This document shows positions 7,746-25,882 of a stretch of DNA of 64,000 nt, one piece after another. The number at the start of each line of letters is the position of its first letter. Position 1 is the first letter of the stretch. A program made the position numbers and the translations under genes. The notes under the pieces are model-generated. The model did not search any database. It had not been told where the DNA came from and was given only the letters and a program-made list of their open reading frames with translations. Source of the DNA: Natronobacterium texcoconense (GTDB taxonomy: Archaea; Halobacteriota; Halobacteria; Halobacteriales; Natrialbaceae); the NCBI RefSeq assembly GCF_900104065.1, contig NZ_FNLC01000001.1, positions 930,001 to 994,000 on the forward strand, read 5' to 3'.

Positions 7746-8040
7746 AGGAGTTGAACCCGAGCGTCACAGAAAATTGGCCGGGAGCGCATCCGAACGAAAG
7801 TGAGGGTGCGCGACCCGGGGAAGGGCAGGCTATTCGCCGAGAAGTCACCGCGAGCGACTGTAAGGAGTGAGCGAAGCGAGGCGGTAACGCCGCCTCGGAA
7901 CCGCGAACGGCGAAGCCGTGAGCGGGCCGACGACTGACCCGGAAGCCGCGTTCACGCGGCTGGAGGGGAAGGAGGAGTGCTTTTCATCAAAGTTTTGCCG
8001 AGTGTGGTCGCTTTGCGACCACACGCAGAGCAAAAGTTTG
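7746..8040. other. Palindrome-rich intergenic region
   Basis: No coding sequence is seen between the convergent ends of the repeat-tail gene and the acyl-CoA dehydrogenase. The region contains several short complementary pairs (for example GGCGGT/ACCGCC-like and GCCGCG...CGCGGC arms) and ends in a strong stem-loop. It may yield a structured 3' end or be an old repeat element. Confidence 0.4.
7988..8040. terminator. Nested stem-loop after acyl-CoA dehydrogenase
   Basis: The inner perfect 10-bp stem with a TTT loop (GTGTGGTCGC/GCGACCACAC) is at 8002-8024. Outer 11-nt arms (7988-7998 and 8030-8040) pair with one mismatch. On the minus strand the structure begins directly after the stop codon and is followed by T-rich sequence, so a 3'-end or termination role is plausible. 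Confidence 0.5.
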
Positions 8041-9198
8041 TTAGAAGCCCTTACCGAGCATTTCGCGGGCGATGACGTTCTTCTGGATCTCGCTGGTGCC
8101 CTCGTAGATCTGGGTGATCTTGGCGTCGCGGTAGAACCGTTCGACGGGGAAGTCGTCGACGTAGCCGGCGCCGCCGTGGATCTGGACGGCTTCGTTGGCG
8201 ACGTCGACGGCGACGCGGGAGGCGTACTCTTTGGCCATCGACGCGAGCTTGGTGATGTCTTCGCCCTGGTCGACGTTCCAGGCGGCCTTGTACGTCAGGT
8301 TGCGGGCGGCCTCGGTGTCGGTCGCCATCTCCGCGAGCTTGTGCTGGATGGCCTGGAACTCCGAGATCGACTGGCCGAACTGTTCGCGGTCCTGTGCGTA
8401 CTCGAGGGCGGCGCGCGTGGCACCTTTCGCGATACCGACGCCCTGTGCGGCGACGGCGGTTCGGGTTTCGTCGAAGAACTGCATCTGCTGCATGAACGCG
8501 GCGTCTTTGGTTCCGACGAGGTTCTCCTCGGGGACGCGGACGTTGTCGAAGATGACCTCGGCGGTGTCGGACGAGCGGATACCCAGTTTGCCGGTGATCT
8601 TCTCGGTTTTGACGCCGTCGCGGTCGGTTTCGACGACGATCTGGCTGAAGCCGTTGTAGCGGCCCTCGGCGTCGGGGTTGGTCTTTGCGAGGACGACGAG
8701 GAAGTCGGCGACGGTGCCGTTGGTGATCCACATCTTGTTGCCGTTGAGCACCCACTCGTCGCCGTCTTTCTCGGCGCGCGTCGAGACCGAGGAGACGTCC
8801 GAGCCGGTGTCGGGTTCGGAGATCGCGGCACCCGAGATCTTCTCGCCCAGTGCGACGGGCTCGAGGAAGCGTTCCTTCTGGTCTTCGGTACCGAAGTTCA
8901 TGATCGCCTCACAGCCGAAGGAGGTGGAGACGATCGACAGCGCGATACCGGGGTCGTAGGAGAACAGTTCCTCGGTGATGATCGCGGTGTCGAGGATCGA
9001 GTAGCCAGCACCGCCGTACTCCATCGGGATGTACGACCCGGTCAGACCCATCTCGGCGGCCTTGTCGATGACGTCGTGGGGATATTTCTCTTCCTCGTCG
9101 TACTCGCCGGCGACGGGGACGATTTCGTTCTCCGCGAATCGCTGTACTTCTTCGCGAATCTGTTGCTGTTCTTCGGTGAGTCCGAATTCCATAGACAT
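8041..9198 (-). CDS. Acyl-CoA dehydrogenase
   Basis: A 385-residue FAD-dependent acyl-CoA dehydrogenase, full length for the family, catalysing the first alpha,beta-dehydrogenation in fatty-acid or branched-acid beta-oxidation. The helical N-terminal domain begins FGLTEEQQ. The middle domain holds the SEPDTGSD and WITNG signatures. The C-terminal helical domain ends with YEGTSEIQ, whose glutamate (about 366) is the usual catalytic base. It is divergent from the hydroxyacyl-CoA dehydrogenase/enoyl-CoA hydratase gene across a shared promoter region, so the two steps are likely co-regulated. Chain-length preference cannot be read from the sequence. Confidence 0.92.
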
Positions 9199-9307
9199 TA
9201 CTTACCGAGCGATCGATAAAGACCTTTGTAACCAGATATAAACTGAATTGTAGTTTGGTTTACGAAATAGGGAAACGTTCAAACCGGTGCCCATCGCATG
9301 TTTGCCC

Positions 9308-11281
9308 ATGGAGCTCGAAGACATCAACACCGTCGCAGTTCTCGGTGCTGGAAACATGGGCCACGGTATCGCGGAAGTCGCCGCGATGGCTGGCTACGAC
9401 GTGAACATGCGCGACATCAAAGAGGAGTTCGTCCAGGACGGCTACGACCAGATCGAGTGGTCGCTGGGCAAACTCGCCGAAAACGACCAGCTCAGCGAGG
9501 ACGAAGCTGACGCCGCTCTCGAGCGCGTCACGCCGCTGGTCGACATGGAGGAAGCGGTCTCGGACGCCGACGTCATCATCGAGGCCGTCCCCGAGAAGAT
9601 GGAGATCAAGAAGGACGTCTACGGCGACGTCGAGGAGCACGCCCCCGACCGCGCCATCTTCGCGACGAACACTTCGAGCCTCTCGATCACGGAACTCGCG
9701 GACGTCACGGACCGCCCCGAGCAGTTCTGTGGTATGCACTTCTTTAACCCGCCGGTCCGGATGCCGCTCGTCGAGGTCATCTCCGGTGCCGAAAGCGCCG
9801 AGGAGACCCTCGACGTGATCGAGGATCTCGCCGATGACTTCGGCAAGTCGCCGGTTCGCGTCCACAAGGACGCGCCCGGTTTCATCGTCAACCGCATCCT
9901 CGTTCCCCTGATGAACGAGGCCTCCTGGCTCGTCTCCGAGGACGAGGCGACCATCGCCGAGGTCGACTCGACCACGAAGTACGGCATGGGACTGCCGATG
10001 GGGAGCTTCGAACTCGGTGACCAGGTCGGCAACGACGTCAGCTACCACGTCCTCGAGTACATGCACGAGGTACTCGGCGACGCCTACGAGCCCGCGCCCC
10101 TGCTCGAGGAGAAAGTCGAGAACGAGGAACTCGGCAAGAAGACCGGCAAGGGCTTCTACGACTACGAGGACGGCGAGGGCGTCGACATCCCGACCGACGA
10201 GCAGTCCGAACTCGTCGAGGAGCGTCTGCTGGCTTCGATGGCAAACGAGGTCGCCAAGCTGATCGGCGGCGATGTCGCCCCGCCCGAATCGATCGACGAG
10301 GCCGTCCAGCTCGGTGCCGGCTTCCCCGACGGTCCCGTCAAGCAGGTCGACGAGTACGGCCTCGACGACTTGCTCTCCGTGCTCGAGGAGGCCTACGAGG
10401 AGACGGGCCACGAGCGCTACGAGCCCGCCGACTTCCTCGCGGAACGCGCCGACGAGGGTGGCTTCTACGAGAGCGACGAAGGCGACGACGGCGTCGACTT
10501 CGAGGCAATCCGCATCGAGTACCCCGGTGACATGGTGGGCCACATCGTCCTCGACCGCCCACACCGCATGAACACCATCAGCGACGAACTGCTCGAGGAG
10601 CTCTCGGCTGCGGTCGACCTGCTCGAGGAGGACGACGAGATTCGCTCGATCCTCGTCACCGGCGAGGGCGACAAGGCCTTCTCCGCTGGCGCTGACGTCC
10701 AGAGCATGGCCGGCAGCGGCGCCGACCCGATCGAGGGCCAGGAGCTCTCCCGTGCGGGCCAGCAGGCCTTCGGCGAACTCGAGTCCTGTGAGATGCCCGT
10801 CGTCGCCGGGATCGACGGCTACTGTCTCGGTGGCGGGATGGAACTGGCGACCTGTGCGGACATGCGCGTCGCCAGCGAGCGGTCGGAGTTCGGCCAGCCC
10901 GAACTCGACCTCGGCCTGATTCCGGGCTGGGGCGGCACCCAGCGACTCAAGCACATCGTCGGTGAAGGCCGCGCGAAGGAGATCATCCTCACCGCGGAGC
11001 GCTACGAGGCCGAGACGATGGCAGACTACGGCTTCGTCAACGAAATCGTCGACAACGACGACCTCGAGGACCGCGCGCTCGAACTGGCGACCGACCTCGC
11101 CGGCGGCCCGCCGATCGCCCAGAAGTTCACCAAGCGCGCCTTCCTCGCCGGCCGCGACGACACCGACGCCGGCCTCGAGTACGAGGCTTCCGCGTTCGGT
11201 CACCTGATGGCGACCGACGACCTCATGGAGGGTATCACGGCCTTCATGGGTGACGGCGAGCCGAACTTCGAGGGGAAGTGA
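9308..11281 (+). CDS. 3-hydroxyacyl-CoA dehydrogenase / enoyl-CoA hydratase fusion
   Basis: A 657-residue bifunctional beta-oxidation protein. The N-terminal 3-hydroxyacyl-CoA dehydrogenase NAD domain has VLGAGNMG (Gly13/15/18) and HFFNPPV. Its C-terminal domains run to about residue 385. A crotonase (enoyl-CoA hydratase/isomerase) domain follows from about 400 to the end, with FSAGAD, GGGMELA and QPELDLGLIPGWGGTQ. The order dehydrogenase-then-crotonase is the reverse of bacterial FadB, as in other archaeal fusions. The ATG at 9308 was chosen over an upstream GTG at 9287 because the Rossmann strand begins directly after it. With the divergent acyl-CoA dehydrogenase this covers three consecutive steps. 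Confidence 0.93.
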   Translation: MELEDINTVAVLGAGNMGHGIAEVAAMAGYDVNMRDIKEEFVQDGYDQIEWSLGKLAENDQLSEDEADAALERVTPLVDMEEAVSDADVIIEAVPEKMEIKKDVYGDVEEHAPDRAIFATNTSSLSITELADVTDRPEQFCGMHFFNPPVRMPLVEVISGAESAEETLDVIEDLADDFGKSPVRVHKDAPGFIVNRILVPLMNEASWLVSEDEATIAEVDSTTKYGMGLPMGSFELGDQVGNDVSYHVLEYMHEVLGDAYEPAPLLEEKVENEELGKKTGKGFYDYEDGEGVDIPTDEQSELVEERLLASMANEVAKLIGGDVAPPESIDEAVQLGAGFPDGPVKQVDEYGLDDLLSVLEEAYEETGHERYEPADFLAERADEGGFYESDEGDDGVDFEAIRIEYPGDMVGHIVLDRPHRMNTISDELLEELSAAVDLLEEDDEIRSILVTGEGDKAFSAGADVQSMAGSGADPIEGQELSRAGQQAFGELESCEMPVVAGIDGYCLGGGMELATCADMRVASERSEFGQPELDLGLIPGWGGTQRLKHIVGEGRAKEIILTAERYEAETMADYGFVNEIVDNDDLEDRALELATDLAGGPPIAQKFTKRAFLAGRDDTDAGLEYEASAFGHLMATDDLMEGITAFMGDGEPNFEGK

Positions 11282-20519: not shown

Positions 20520-20981
20520 GTGCACGTCGTGATCCAGGCCACACACAGTTCGGATCGACTCCCGCTCGCCGTATCGTTCGCCTGCTTCGTCGTCGCGGGC
20601 GGTACGACCGCAACTACCGATGCGACCGTTCCGACCCTCGGAGCGACGGCGGTCGCGATCGGGGCGGTCTACGCGCTCGCGCTGTACGCGAAAGCGGTCA
20701 CCCGGCGAACGCTCGCACAGCTATCGATCGCGTTCTGGATCGCGTTCATCGCGGTTGCGGGGCTTCACGCAGTCGGCCTCGGGACCGTCGGCGCGACCGT
20801 TCCCGGCCCAGCCGAGACGATCGCGTTCTCGCTGTCTGCGATCACGTGGGGAACGTTCCTGACGGCCTGTGGCTCGACCGCGTTCCTCGCGGCCCGCGAG
20901 TACGGTGCCTCGGCCGGATCCCACGTCGAGGCCGACGAACAGGTTCTCGAGGGTGAAACCTCCGACTACTCCACGCGGTAA
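20520..20981 (+). CDS. Four-helix membrane protein, hypothetical
   Basis: A 153-residue protein with four transmembrane segments (about 15-32, 40-60, 65-90 and 100-125) and a short acidic C-terminus. The family is not recognised. Starts at GTG 20520 or 20529 are both possible. Its last 16 nt overlap the convergent O-methyltransferase gene. Confidence 0.6.
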   Translation: MHVVIQATHSSDRLPLAVSFACFVVAGGTTATTDATVPTLGATAVAIGAVYALALYAKAVTRRTLAQLSIAFWIAFIAVAGLHAVGLGTVGATVPGPAETIAFSLSAITWGTFLTACGSTAFLAAREYGASAGSHVEADEQVLEGETSDYSTR

Positions 20982-21643
20982 CTGACTGCGATCCCTTCTC
21001 CGAGCGGTAACAGGACAGTCTCGAACGCCGGATCCGTCGTGACGTGTTCGAGGTAGTCGGCGATCCCTTCCGTATGTTCGTTGGCGTCGATTTCTGCTGC
21101 CGTGGCGTCGGTCTCGATCAGTTCCTGCAGTTTGTCGAACTCGATGATCCCCGCAGCGATAGCGTTGTCCGCGACGACGACGCCACCCGTCGGAACCTTC
21201 TCCCGGACGGCCTCGAACGCTTCGACGTACCGGTGTTTCTGGTGGTCGATCAACGTCACGTCGAACGGACCGTCGTATCGATCGATCGCCTCGAGCGCGT
21301 CGCCGAGTTCGTACTGCGCGAGGTCGTCGTAGCCGCCCTGGGCCATGTAGTCGCGGGCCATCTCGAGTTCGTCCTCGTCGACTTCGGTGAGGACGATCTC
21401 GCCGTTTTCGGGCAACGCCTCGGCGAACCAGTACGCGGAGTAGCCGTAGCCGGAACCGAACTCGAAGATCCGCTCGGCGTCGGTCAGCCGGGCCAGCAGT
21501 CGGAGGACGCCGCCAACTTCGGGCCCGACGTGGGGGAATCCCTCCTCGCGAGCGTACTCGTCCATCTCGGCGAGCGTCTCGTCGGGGTCGGGTCCGACGG
21601 TCCGTACGAACTGCTCGATCTCGTCGCTGAGGACGTCGACCAT
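20966..21643 (-). CDS. Class I O-methyltransferase (YrrM/CCoAMT-like)
   Basis: A 225-residue SAM-dependent methyltransferase. Motif I is IFEFGSGYGYSAYWFA, followed by IVLTEVDEDELEMA, LGDALEAI and DVTLIDHQKHRYVEAF. The last matches the catechol-O-methyltransferase-like fold, in which an aspartate binds the divalent cation. GGVVVADNAI follows. The substrate is unknown. The ATG at 21643 was selected; a longer frame to 21748 overlaps the upstream control region and lacks coding character. Confidence 0.85.
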   Translation of the reverse strand: MVDVLSDEIEQFVRTVGPDPDETLAEMDEYAREEGFPHVGPEVGGVLRLLARLTDAERIFEFGSGYGYSAYWFAEALPENGEIVLTEVDEDELEMARDYMAQGGYDDLAQYELGDALEAIDRYDGPFDVTLIDHQKHRYVEAFEAVREKVPTGGVVVADNAIAAGIIEFDKLQELIETDATAAEIDANEHTEGIADYLEHVTTDPAFETVLLPLGEGIAVSYRVE

Positions 21644-21722: not shown

Positions 21723-21744
21723 CGGTCAAAACTCGTTTTGACCG
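21723..21744. promoter_or_regulatory. Operator-like inverted repeat 1 (own regulator promoter)
   Basis: CGGTCAAAA-CTCG-TTTTGACCG is a perfect 9-4-9 inverted repeat 35 nt before the start of the ArsR-like regulator. It sits where the TATA box should be, so binding would block TBP/TFB. The same architecture is found at 24997 and 25861. Confidence 0.65.
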
Positions 21745-21778
21745 TCACGACCCTCTAAGTTCGATCGGGTATAAAGCC

Positions 21779-22243
21779 ATGCCAGAGATGGGACGTCTCC
21801 TGCCGACGACACCCGACGCGACGATCGAGCGCAGCGAGGAGCCACGGTTGCTGTGTATCGACGACGAGCAATCGACGCAGGTTCTCCAGGCGCTTTCCTC
21901 GGATACCAGCCAGCGGATATTCCGAACGCTCAACGAGGAACCCATGACGCCGCGGGACGTCGCCGACGAACTCGACAGTTCACTGCAAAGCGTCGGCTAC
22001 CACCTCGAGAACCTGGAGGAAGCAGGACTCATCACGGTACTTGACACCTGTTACTCGGAGAAAGGCCAGGAGATGAAGGTGTACGGCCCACCCAGGGAGC
22101 CACTGGTGCTCTTTTTCGGTCCGTCGGACGATCAGCCAGGACTGACTGCGGCGTTCGAGCGGTTTGCTGGCGCGATCGGACTTACGGCTGTCCCGCTGGC
22201 CATCGGTCAGGCGCTCGCGCGGCTGTTCGGTGCCGACGAGTGA
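21779..22243 (+). CDS. ArsR-like winged-HTH regulator
   Basis: A 154-residue regulator. The winged HTH is at about residues 35-105 (ALSSDTSQRIFRTLNEEPMTPRDVADELDSSLQSVGYHLENLEEAGLI) and is followed by a short C-terminal segment with an apolar/amphipathic helix (AGAIGLTAVPLAIGQALARL) that may dimerise or touch the membrane. A perfect inverted repeat lies in its own promoter, suggesting autoregulation. Near-copies lie upstream of the ABC exporter and CPBP genes, so this is the likely regulator of the whole cluster up to 25.9 kb. Confidence 0.8.
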   Translation: MPEMGRLLPTTPDATIERSEEPRLLCIDDEQSTQVLQALSSDTSQRIFRTLNEEPMTPRDVADELDSSLQSVGYHLENLEEAGLITVLDTCYSEKGQEMKVYGPPREPLVLFFGPSDDQPGLTAAFERFAGAIGLTAVPLAIGQALARLFGADE

Positions 22244-22321
22244 GTTCGAACCAGTCGATCACTCGACGCACGGATCGGTAGAAACAGTGAACTGAATTGA
22301 CGCCGGAGCTACAGGTATTCC

Positions 22322-23197
22322 GTGCAGCCAGTCAAATGCGCCGAGGACGTCGACGGGTGCGATTGTCTCCGGTGTCGAGACCTCGAGGGGGACGTCGTCC
22401 GTCGATCGGTCGGCGACGACGCTCTCTGGGGGAGCAGACTCCTTCGTTCGTATCCATCGCTCGTCGCGTTCGCCGCTGTCCTCGCGGCCGCAGAGAGCGC
22501 CCGACAGCTGTTCGATCTCACACTCTCGGTCCCCGTCGTCGGAGAGTTGTTCGAAATCCCGCTCTTGCTCGTCGGCCCGTTCCTGGTGTTCCGTGGCTAC
22601 ATCGTGGCGGTAACGGTCAGCGCACTGAGAGGGGAGTCGTCGCCGGCGAGCGGGTCGATTCTAGGGTATACGGTCTACCGACTCCCGGCACTCGTCGGTG
22701 CGACGCTGATTCAGGCCGCTATCGCACTCGTCGCGGTCGCCGTGGCGGTACTCGGTGTGATCGTTCTCGGCTCGATCGCCATCGGCATCAGCGAAGCGTT
22801 CGCCCTCGATTTCGTCGACGGGACCGTGTTCGGGCCCCTGTTCTCGGGTGTCTCGGGCACTCTTCTCTTCGGTTCCGTCGGGTCCGCGTTCCTGTTCAAG
22901 TTCTGGCTCGCACCGGACATCTGCGTCGCCGGCGGCTACGGTCCGGAGCGGGCGCTCCGACTGAGCTGGGCGATCACCGCTAGCCACACCCGTCGGCTCC
23001 TGCTCGTCGTCGCCGGGTTCGCACTGACCATCTTCATCCCGCTCGTGATCGGGCGAGGACTCACGACACTCACCAGTCAGCACCTCCTCGAGACGCCGGG
23101 AATAAGCGGCCTCGGGCTGTTCGCACAGTCGATCCTGTACGTTCTCTGGTTCTCGATCGGAACCCAGATTTACGTTCGTAGCGTCCTCGAGCGGTGA
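22322..23197 (+). CDS. Multi-pass membrane protein with Cys-rich N-terminus
   Basis: A 291-residue protein. The cytoplasmic N-terminus has four cysteines in a short stretch (Cys6, Cys13, Cys15 and Cys18), which could form a zinc site. About six transmembrane helices follow (from residue 45 to the end), rich in Val, Ala and Leu. The family is not recognised; the layout recalls haloarchaeal DUF4013-like membrane proteins. The only reasonable start is GTG at 22322. It follows the ArsR-like gene by 78 nt on the same strand and is convergent with the ABC exporter, so it may belong to the same functional unit. Confidence 0.65.
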   Translation: MQPVKCAEDVDGCDCLRCRDLEGDVVRRSVGDDALWGSRLLRSYPSLVAFAAVLAAAESARQLFDLTLSVPVVGELFEIPLLLVGPFLVFRGYIVAVTVSALRGESSPASGSILGYTVYRLPALVGATLIQAAIALVAVAVAVLGVIVLGSIAIGISEAFALDFVDGTVFGPLFSGVSGTLLFGSVGSAFLFKFWLAPDICVAGGYGPERALRLSWAITASHTRRLLLVVAGFALTIFIPLVIGRGLTTLTSQHLLETPGISGLGLFAQSILYVLWFSIGTQIYVRSVLER

Positions 23198-23224
23198 TTC
23201 GGACGGTCCGAAACGAGGTTCGAA

Positions 23225-24112
23225 CTACTGGGTTCGCTCGGATCGGTTCTCGCTCCGGACGTGAGCGTAATAGTTGAACAGGTCGGTGTAGGTCGACCGA
23301 TCGCGCTCTCCGAGCGCTCCATCACCGATCTCGAGGTCGTCGACGCTGGTCTCCGGCGGCAGGAACGCACGCTGTTCGTCGCCGTTTCCGAACGTCTGTC
23401 CCTCGAGGAGCCGCTCTGTCGGGAGCGACGTTCCACGCGCCCGAACGACCGTCGGAAGCGTCGACAGCAGTTCGTCGGGCGGGCCGCTGGCGACGACGCT
23501 GCCGTCGGTGAGAAAGACGAGTCGGTCGGCGACGTCGGCGTCGAGCGGTGCGTGACTCGAGAGGACGACGGTCCGCCCCTCGTCGGTCAGTTCTCGAATC
23601 GTCTCGTGGATCGTCTGGACGACGGAGAGGTCGAGTTCAGCGGTCGGTTCGTCCAGCAGGTACAGCGGGACGTCGGCCGAGAGCGCGATCGTCGCCTCCA
23701 GTCGCCGTACCATCCCGCCGGAGTACTCCTGAACCGGTCGATCGAGGTCGTCCGCGATCCCGAACCGATCCGCGAGTTCTCGCCATCGGTTCCCGGCCGA
23801 CGGGTGGAGATCCCGGTAGAACGCGATGTTTTCGCGACCGGTGAGACCCGGATCGGCGATTCCACCCTGTAACGTGACGCTCGTCCGCCCCTTCGCCGCG
23901 GGATCGGTGGGTCCACAGCCGTCGAACAGGCTGATCGTTCCATCGTCGGGAGTTGCGCTCCCTGCGAGACACGACAGCAGTACCGACTTCCCTGCCCCAT
24001 TGGGCCCCATGAGTACGACGAGTTCGCCGGCCTCGACGGCGAGATCGACGCCCTCGAGGACGCGCCGGTCGTCGAAGCGTTTCCGAACGTCGCTGGTCTC
24101 GAGCAGGCTCAT
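23225..24112 (-). CDS. ABC transporter ATP-binding protein
   Basis: A 295-residue ATPase subunit. Walker A is GPNGAGKS (about 34-41), the signature YSGGMVRR, Walker B LYLLDEP, and a switch histidine in SSHAPLD. A C-terminal extension of about 80 residues follows the ATPase core, as in CcmA-type exporters. The start at 24112 has a GAGGTGAG ribosome-binding sequence and lies 1 nt after the permease stop, so the two are an operon with the permease first. Confidence 0.9.
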   Translation of the reverse strand: MSLLETSDVRKRFDDRRVLEGVDLAVEAGELVVLMGPNGAGKSVLLSCLAGSATPDDGTISLFDGCGPTDPAAKGRTSVTLQGGIADPGLTGRENIAFYRDLHPSAGNRWRELADRFGIADDLDRPVQEYSGGMVRRLEATIALSADVPLYLLDEPTAELDLSVVQTIHETIRELTDEGRTVVLSSHAPLDADVADRLVFLTDGSVVASGPPDELLSTLPTVVRARGTSLPTERLLEGQTFGNGDEQRAFLPPETSVDDLEIGDGALGERDRSTYTDLFNYYAHVRSENRSERTQ

Positions 24113-24113
24113 C

Positions 24114-24956
24114 TCACTCACCTCCGTACGCGACGCGACTGACGAGCGCGACCGAGACGGCGACGAGTCCAACTCCGTATCCCGCCAGCAACGCGACGTG
24201 TTCCGGCAGGGACGGGGGATCGGGCGGCGTCATGAACCCGACGTTCTCGGGGCCAGCCCAGGCGACGAGCTGGAGTCGGGTCGCGAGCGAATTGGGTGCG
24301 AAATTCACGATCTCGGGCGAACCGGCGATCATGTGGGGGACGATCCCATTCTGGCCGGTGAGATAGAACGCGACCAGGACGGTGACGACGGCGATCGTCG
24401 TCATGTACTCCGGTTTCGGAACTGCGACGGCCAGCAACAGTGCGAGTGCCATCGCGATCAGGCAGAACGTCACCAGCGTCAGCACGAGAACCACTATCGT
24501 CGTCGGCGTGATCGCTTCGAATCGAGCGCCGGTGGCGACGGCAGCGACGATCGTCGCGACGTACGAACCGGTTCCGATCGCCACCCCTGCGGTGAACCGA
24601 CCGGCGAGATCGGCCGTCGGCGAGATCGGCATCGCCCTGAGTTTTCGGTACCGATCGGTCTCCAGATCGCGCGCGAACTCCCCGGCGAAGACCGCGACGG
24701 TGACGGTGAACGCACCGAAGAGGCCGAACGTCATCCCGAGTGCCGCTCTCGTGAGCGCGTCCGCGTCGTCGACGAACAGGACCAGCGTCAGCGCGTACCA
24801 ACAGATCGGCCACGCGATCGTCAGGGCTGCGATCGTCTTTCGCCGGACGAGTTGCTGCAGGTGCCTGCGCGCGAACGCCCAGGCCTGTCGCGTCCAGGGA
24901 ACGGTTCCTGTCTCCCGGCGAAGGGAGACGCCGTCCGCATGCGTCGCATCCGTCAT
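24114..24956 (-). CDS. ABC-2 type transporter permease
   Basis: A 280-residue membrane subunit with about six transmembrane helices and the amphipathic PISPTADLAGRF segment between TM2 and TM3, typical of ABC-2 exporters. The N-terminal 35 residues are cytoplasmic. It is the first gene of the exporter operon. An inverted repeat of the cluster type lies 41 nt upstream of its ATG. The substrate is unknown; ABC-2 systems of this kind export lipids, peptides or small hydrophobic compounds. Confidence 0.85.
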   Translation of the reverse strand: MTDATHADGVSLRRETGTVPWTRQAWAFARRHLQQLVRRKTIAALTIAWPICWYALTLVLFVDDADALTRAALGMTFGLFGAFTVTVAVFAGEFARDLETDRYRKLRAMPISPTADLAGRFTAGVAIGTGSYVATIVAAVATGARFEAITPTTIVVLVLTLVTFCLIAMALALLLAVAVPKPEYMTTIAVVTVLVAFYLTGQNGIVPHMIAGSPEIVNFAPNSLATRLQLVAWAGPENVGFMTPPDPPSLPEHVALLAGYGVGLVAVSVALVSRVAYGGE

Positions 24957-24996
24957 CGTCGAAGCCTTCGGGAAGGTGTGAAAAAGGATCGAGGTA

Positions 24997-25018
24997 CGGT
25001 CAAAATCAGTTTTTAGCG
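24997..25018. promoter_or_regulatory. Operator-like inverted repeat 2 (ABC exporter promoter)
   Basis: CGGTCAAAA-TCAG-TTTTTAGCG is a 9-4-9 inverted repeat with seven of nine positions paired, 41 nt upstream of the permease start. One half is identical to the perfect site before the ArsR-like gene. Confidence 0.6.
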
Positions 25019-25047
25019 CACCGGGACGAGTGGCCGGAAGCGGAGCG

Positions 25048-25821
25048 TCACCAGAGCACGGGAACGACGCCGACCGTGACGAGAAGCCCCCAGACGTTGA
25101 TCGAGAGGTGCATCAGCCACGCACCGACGAGGTTGTCGTACCACAGCCGCAGCACCGTCAGCAGGGCACCGAGCAGTCCGGTGACGACGATGCTCACCAC
25201 GCCAGCCATGAATACGTGGACGAGCGCGAACAGCAGTACCGAGAGGATGCTCGCGGCCACGATTCCGTATCCGCGAGCAACGAGGTGACCGAGAACCAGT
25301 CCCCGGAAGAGGATCTCCTCGGCGATCGGGGCGACGACGACGGTGCCGAAAACCAGCGCCGCGATCCCTGCGCCACTCGTCACCAGCCCACGATCGTGCG
25401 GTGCGAGTCCGACCGTCTCCGCGGCGTTGTTCCCGACGACGACGATCGCGATTCCGACGAGTGTCGCGAGGAGCGCAGCACCGATCTCGTCCGTCGAGGG
25501 CTTACGAACGACTACGGCGGCCCGCCACGTCGCGCGATCCCACTCCCGGTACAGCCAGTAGACGATGGCGGCGTACGCGACGCCGAGCGGAACGATCAGG
25601 GCCCACTGTGGCCACCCCGGATCAGCACCCTGGTTGGCGGTTATCCCCGCCGTCATCACGAATGCCGTGAACGCGATCGGGACGAACGGCAGTGCGAGTA
25701 CCCACTCGAGCGAGCAGTCGACGAGCGGTTCGACCGTCCGCTCGAGTCGCCGTCGCCGTCTCGCCCACGAACCGGCGGAACCCGGTTCGACTCGGTCGGT
25801 CGTTGGTGTATCGGGAGCCAT
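25048..25821 (-). CDS. CPBP family intramembrane metalloprotease
   Basis: A 257-residue type II CAAX/CPBP (Abi) protease-like protein. Motif 1 has Glu168-Glu169 and FRG (EEILFRG), motif 2 has His202 (FALVHVF), and motif 3 has His238 and Asn242 (LMHLSIN). All catalytic-type residues are present, within about eight transmembrane helices. Members cleave prenylated proteins or process and resist peptides, and in bacteria often sit with bacteriocin exporters. The ATG at 25821 was chosen; a GTG at 25845 is the alternative. The promoter carries an inverted repeat shared with the ArsR-like regulator and the exporter. Confidence 0.85.
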   Translation of the reverse strand: MAPDTPTTDRVEPGSAGSWARRRRRLERTVEPLVDCSLEWVLALPFVPIAFTAFVMTAGITANQGADPGWPQWALIVPLGVAYAAIVYWLYREWDRATWRAAVVVRKPSTDEIGAALLATLVGIAIVVVGNNAAETVGLAPHDRGLVTSGAGIAALVFGTVVVAPIAEEILFRGLVLGHLVARGYGIVAASILSVLLFALVHVFMAGVVSIVVTGLLGALLTVLRLWYDNLVGAWLMHLSINVWGLLVTVGVVPVLW

Positions 25822-25860
25822 AGCTGGCCGTACGGGGAGAGTCACAAAACCGATCGGGTA

Positions 25861-25882
25861 CGGTTAAAACGGCTTTTTACCG
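25861..25882. promoter_or_regulatory. Operator-like inverted repeat 3 (CPBP protease promoter)
   Basis: CGGTTAAAA-CGGC-TTTTTACCG is a 9-4-9 inverted repeat with eight of nine positions paired, 40 nt upstream of the CPBP ATG. Spacing and half-sites match the sites at 21723 and 24997. Confidence 0.6.

Follow-up and report, generated by a model that had tools for sequence, protein, structure and literature searches.

SdpR and SdpI of Bacillus form an immunity-signalling pair that is likely to follow a logic of membrane sequestration. In Pyrococcus and other Thermococcales, the TFB-RF1 regulon depends on a small regulator (PF1088) that activates its own operon, which includes an uncharacterised membrane protein, and has an ABC-2 drug-export operon as second target; PF1089 has four predicted transmembrane segments (PMC5937170). 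Its palindrome, the 13-nt motif TCTGAANTTCAGA, lies directly upstream of a weak transcription factor B (TFB) recognition element (BRE) and TATA element, at a conserved distance (PMC5937170). OxsR of Haloferax volcanii is a single winged-helix protein with one functionally required cysteine, and its activation site is located upstream of BRE and TATA (PMC9426492). Here we describe a locus from a 64,000-nt stretch of Natronobacterium texcoconense DNA (the window), in which a winged-helix regulator (REG) is encoded beside a cysteine-motif membrane protein (MEM) and appears to share its operator with an ABC-2 exporter operon and the gene of a CPBP (Rce1-like) intramembrane protease.

Operators in the window and in related genomes

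An earlier note on this DNA had proposed three inverted repeats as one operator common to three promoters. Coordinates and pairing were found exactly as it quoted them, and its distances to the start codons (35, 41 and 40 nt) are correct within 1 nt. Operator 1 (21723..21744), a perfect 9-4-9 palindrome of the form CGGTCAAAA-CTCG-TTTTGACCG with the core TCAAAA-N4-TTTTGA at 21726-21741, precedes REG. Operator 2 (24997..25018, 7/9 paired) precedes the exporter operon and operator 3 (25861..25882, 8/9 paired) the protease gene; no strand is assigned to any of them. No other stretch of the window comes within 3 mismatches of CGGTCAAAA-N4-TTTTGACCG, and the same scan of dinucleotide shuffles of the window averaged 0.00 matches (maximum 0). 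In the whole genome (4,009,868 bases), CGGTNAAAA-N4-TTTTNACCG occurs with at most 2 mismatches at the three window operators only, the six remaining matches having 3 mismatches each.

Conservation was followed in 125 genomes of the family and in a class set of 391 genomes from 86 genera. The exact core occurs 25 times in the family genomes, the reversed control once. Eighteen of these cores fall in 13 genomes with REG-MEM (reversed control there: 0), and the approximately 100 genomes devoid of MEM hold 7 in total. Genes for REG, an ABC exporter, a DUF7847 protein or a LolA-like lipoprotein follow 17 of the 18, and 14 are located at REG-MEM loci. Among the four situated elsewhere, three are followed after 42-45 nt by a gene for a DUF7847 membrane protein and one is inside a coding region. 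DUF7847 genes also precede REG at other REG-MEM loci, and LolA-like lipoprotein genes adjoining MEM are preceded by the operator at two sites. Around REG orthologs, the palindrome core is found again ahead of REG, of MEM and of an ABC-2 operon. The last arrangement, beside REG-MEM, is present in family genomes G031, G046 and G106 (in G106 as 2-mismatch variants) and, in another family, in G149. Outside the family, the operator was detected in G149 (a divergent REG/MEM pair with adjacent ABC-2 operon), G231, G348 and G411. The genome of the window itself contains a second locus, REG2-MEM2 (C2:482-484 kb), accompanied by DUF7847 and overlooked by the earlier note, with operator variants at C2:482122 and 483011. 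The random scatter of which that note warned is not seen in the 13 family genomes. Judged by these comparisons, the three predicted operators are real and belong to a conserved regulon.

Loci of the Halorubrum/Natrinema-type branch have sites of their own. Six of them carry the exact core in front of a gene for a lipoprotein, at a distance of about 5 kb from REG-MEM (L092 3233, L093 3786, L096 3111, L097 3034, L098 3135 and L100 786; typically TTTCTCAAAACAGATTTTGAACGT). In Halorubrum, Halopenitus and Halobellus these sites lie upstream of REG-MEM, and a DUF6159 membrane-protein gene is found further downstream. A degenerate palindrome at the REG promoters of this type was considered and rejected, as an offset scan gave no excess over neighbouring offsets. 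At L045 (~7880-7945, genome G040), GAGGGTCGTGAGTTACTCAA ahead of the REG operator is tandemly duplicated, which creates a second, degenerate half-operator.

The REG-MEM pair and its clients

REG (21779..22243, + strand; 154 aa) is a winged-helix protein, as the description "ArsR-like" had implied. Both HTH_20 (50.8 vs 27 bits) and HTH_5/ArsR (25.5 vs 22 bits) exceed their curated Pfam cut-offs, and the best folds in a fold search are PH1932, Phr, ArsR and CzrA. Scores against the ArsR/SmtB metalloregulators (NF033788, 31.4 vs 55 bits) and the SdpR autorepressor family (NF033789, 31.6 vs 100 bits) stay under cut-off. MEM (22322..23197, + strand; 291 aa), with which REG probably shares one operon in the window, has the N-terminal motif D-x-D-G-C-x-C-L-x-C-R (Cys13, 15 and 18) and is modelled by AlphaFold as six long helices, in line with the Cys-rich six-helix membrane protein noticed earlier. 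No Pfam family, SdpI included, matches the window MEM; GPDPase_memb remains under its cut-off (14.6 vs 29.6 bits), and a fold search against PDB yielded no significant match (best E 0.15). DUF7847 is matched weakly by 11/22 MEM orthologs (best E 1.2e-6), and MEM is not assigned to that family.

MEM is present in 25/125 family genomes, 65/391 class genomes and 25/86 genera; hosts include Natrinema, Natrialba, Natrarchaeobius, Halopiger, Salinadaptatus, Halorubrum, Halobellus, Halopenitus and Haloarcula. It is REG's neighbour at almost all loci, whether the two genes run in tandem, diverge or converge, and this points to a functional tie that goes further than shared transcription. Foremost among its invariant residues are C13, C15, L16, C18 and R19, and CxCxxC occurs in every inspected MEM with intact N-terminus. 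REG has a cysteine of its own, Cys91 (DTCYSEKG), which ends the first wing strand (86-92) in the model. This wing cysteine is found in 28/28 MEM-linked REGs of the family and in 0/29 MEM-unlinked family paralogs, where Trp, Val or Ala take its place. In a divergent set of MEM-linked REGs, the cysteine is present in those checked (by eye in L195, L196, L199 and L201), with His in one divergent pair (L192). On sequence grounds, REG and the Cys-motif protein MEM constitute the conserved core of the regulon, and a regulator and membrane protein matched in their cysteines represent what we take to be a new element.

REG homologs occur in 125/125 family genomes. Most of them represent a longer paralog whose C-terminal segment is hydrophobic, and close orthologs are less numerous. 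The near-universal longer paralog (~290 aa; e.g. L159-L178), with the wing DTWYSSRG and the segment PPGLLFFLGGLVVLL..., looks like a membrane-anchored winged-helix regulator. Members of a third branch (L058, L060, L062, L068 and L070) have HETVYSEKG, end in ...DWL, occur without MEM and possess a similar upstream sequence of their own, e.g. ACTTCGAACTGCGTCTCCGTTACCAGTG. L041 (G106:C51) and L189 (G231:C15), whose genomes belong to two different families, have REG, MEM, ABC and a beta-lactamase-like membrane protein of 639 aa in nearly identical form, a likeness that points to horizontal transfer in recent times. L041 has a transposase-like gene (8674-9846) inserted between REG and MEM.

The exporter operon of the window consists of an ABC-2 type permease (gene 1, 24114..24956, - strand; ABC2_membrane 43.8 vs 26.9 bits) and an ATPase (gene 2, 23225..24112, - strand; ABC_tran 85.9 vs 25 bits), of which only the permease had been noticed before. 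The best NCBIfam model for the ATPase is DrrA-like, with a score below that model's cut-off. Identification of the third candidate target as a CPBP protease (25048..25821, - strand) is supported by PF02517 (59.4 vs 22.4 bits) and by readable EEILFRG, ALVH and HLSIN motifs. Orthologs of the permease (50-65% identity, 11 genomes) and of the protease (54-66% identity, 7 genomes) are sited elsewhere, with the operator absent at those read. ABC-2 permeases beside REG-MEM in G046, G031 and G149 belong to another Pfam family, ABC2_membrane_2. CPBP genes adjoin REG-MEM also in G041 (CPBP-DUF7847-REG-MEM) and G131 (two CPBP genes), and a MacB-type ABC does so in G409. Gene comparisons thus present exporter and protease as exchangeable clients of the REG-MEM operator, and this client exchange is a new element. 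With non-orthologous exporters under the same switch, the regulatory core is kept and the effectors are replaced. The proposal that the regulator controls itself, the exporter and the protease is upheld as far as a putative shared-operator regulon is concerned, and not as a fixed gene set.

Two further candidates were rejected. An O-methyltransferase gene (20966-21643, - strand), divergent from REG, was left out of the regulon: its start lies 80 nt off operator 1, a separate TATA-like element was read for it by eye, and in relatives the gene is no neighbour of REG. Halocin C8 self-immunity was dismissed, since the genome of the window lacks the halocin C8 domain (TIGR04449), which is not linked to REG-MEM loci either.

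Promoter geometry and direction of control

An alignment of 23 promoters (REG, ABC, CPBP, DUF7847 and lipoprotein genes) was anchored on the operator. T(A/T) stands at +15 in 22/23 promoters, which places the TATA element 14 nt downstream of the operator, and WW stands at +32/+33, 17 nt beyond the TATA element, likewise in 22/23. Over 2000 shuffles, the highest column counts were 10 and 14, respectively. All three window promoters conform to this spacing, a regularity absent from the earlier note: REG with TAAGTTCG (21756..21763, + strand; 14 nt past the operator core) and WW (AA) at 21773-21774, the exporter with TTTTTCAC (24978..24985, - strand) and WW (AA) at 24967-24968, and the protease with TTTTGTGA (25842..25849, - strand) and WW (TA) at 25831-25832. 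The promoters have weak TATA elements and show no strong BRE; the operator abuts the BRE region and covers neither TATA nor start. The start codons in the window lie 37-43 nt past the operator core, so transcripts are probably leaderless or nearly so. TATA and WW spacing fits the haloarchaeal elements named in PMC6085418. The strict operator-TATA-WW module is a new element, and its fixed spacing favours an activator over simple autorepression.

Control of opposite sign has to be weighed against this. REG might be an autorepressor of the SdpR/ArsR type that blocks TFB from beside the BRE, in which case MEM (like SdpI) or a ligand would remove it and derepress exporter and protease. Most ArsR proteins are repressors, SdpRI is an autorepressor beside an immunity-type membrane partner, and REG is ArsR-like both in Pfam and in the fold search. 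However, the operator overlaps neither TATA nor start site, the SdpR score is far under its cut-off, the weak TATA elements imply that a bare promoter would be poor, and operator-TATA spacing is invariant over five gene types, as would be expected from contact with TFB or TATA-binding protein (TBP). Repression is therefore possible, if on the whole unlikely, and we infer that activation is roughly twice as probable. Given that REG homologs exist in all family genomes, mostly as the longer paralog, the operator might instead be read by that paralog, with REG merely nearby; yet the paralog is near-universal, whereas enrichment of the operator is confined to REG-MEM genomes, with its sites at REG-MEM loci, so we regard this as improbable. 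Inverted repeats with T-runs can mimic transcription terminators, but chance or terminator origin of the three palindromes is hardly credible and already refuted by conservation and spacing, to which genome uniqueness, position upstream of start codons at fixed TATA distance and zero shuffle matches may be added.

Several observations weigh against a REG-MEM activator circuit. In haloarchaea, a repressor element of phaRP just upstream of the BRE is cited in PMC6085418, so the sign of regulation cannot be read from operator position alone. The earlier expectation that the motif would accompany orthologs held in the 13 family genomes before REG/MEM orthologs, exporter, DUF7847 and lipoprotein genes, and failed at Halorubrum/Natrinema-type REG promoters, where the palindrome is not recognisable and TATA and WW are retained. 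Neither exporter nor protease is a conserved member, both having orthologs elsewhere that come without REG-MEM or operator. The Cys/MEM label takes two changes on the tree, and the cysteine correlation thus amounts to at most a few evolutionary events. Finally, the fold models of REG and MEM are of single chains.

Proposed mechanism and relation to known systems

With these points considered, the locus is probably a local, self-regulated envelope-response regulon in which REG activates, MEM senses or brakes, and exporter and protease respond. A REG dimer would bind the palindromic TCAAAA-N4-TTTTGA immediately ahead of weak core promoters and most likely aid TFB/TBP assembly, switching on jointly the REG-MEM operon, the ABC-2 exporter operon and the protease gene. 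MEM, presumably produced from REG's operon, is likely to be a membrane sensor or brake. Its CxCxxC, presumably cytoplasmic, is conserved along with the wing cysteine of REG; the two may make up a shared metal or thiol site and so keep REG off DNA until a membrane signal frees it. Amphipathic or peptide toxins, lipid disturbance, a metal or an oxidant are candidate signals, and exporter and protease might in turn remove or process the molecule responsible. The most specific version, one metal (or thiol) site built from the three MEM cysteines and the one REG cysteine, by which MEM grips the DNA-reading wing and keeps an archaeal activator membrane-bound until a membrane signal sets it free, is put forward only tentatively and is more doubtful than not. 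If true, it would be a two-protein membrane switch so far undescribed, to which lineages attach different exporters, proteases and lipoproteins. The regulon as such suggests a route by which an archaeon might sense membrane trouble, with a winged-helix activator coupled to a membrane protein that bears a cysteine motif. It is small and testable, with exact sites; few archaeal regulators combine a known operator, fixed promoter geometry and defined targets.

Searches of the open-access literature found no paper on this gene set. The window proteins resemble CPBP proteases and DrrAB-type ABC-2 exporters by Pfam matches above cut-offs, and differ in being clients of the REG-MEM operator, which orthologs elsewhere lack. 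SdpR/SdpI likewise combines an ArsR-like regulator with a multi-helix membrane protein encoded beside it. However, REG falls under the SdpR cut-off, MEM has no SdpI match, and CxCxxC together with the wing cysteine are features of REG-MEM. OxsR, grouped with the redox ArsR proteins SurR and MsvR, is also a haloarchaeal single winged-helix regulator with one key cysteine; its C24 is N-terminal and at the modelled dimer interface, whereas Cys91 of REG is in the wing and paired with CxCxxC of MEM. With TFB-RF1, the REG system shares a small regulator whose operon, probably under its own activation, includes a membrane protein, and a palindrome upstream of weak BRE/TATA, at fixed spacing, common to its own promoter and an ABC-2 operon. 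The operators differ (TCAAAA-N4-TTTTGA vs TCTGAANTTCAGA), and PMC5937170 mentions neither a Cys motif nor a protease, both of which the REG system has. Because of the different operator, we do not file the regulon in the TFB-RF1 family, the likeness being one of function. The REG circuit is best regarded as a function-level parallel of TFB-RF1, with a promoter geometry that likewise favours activation.

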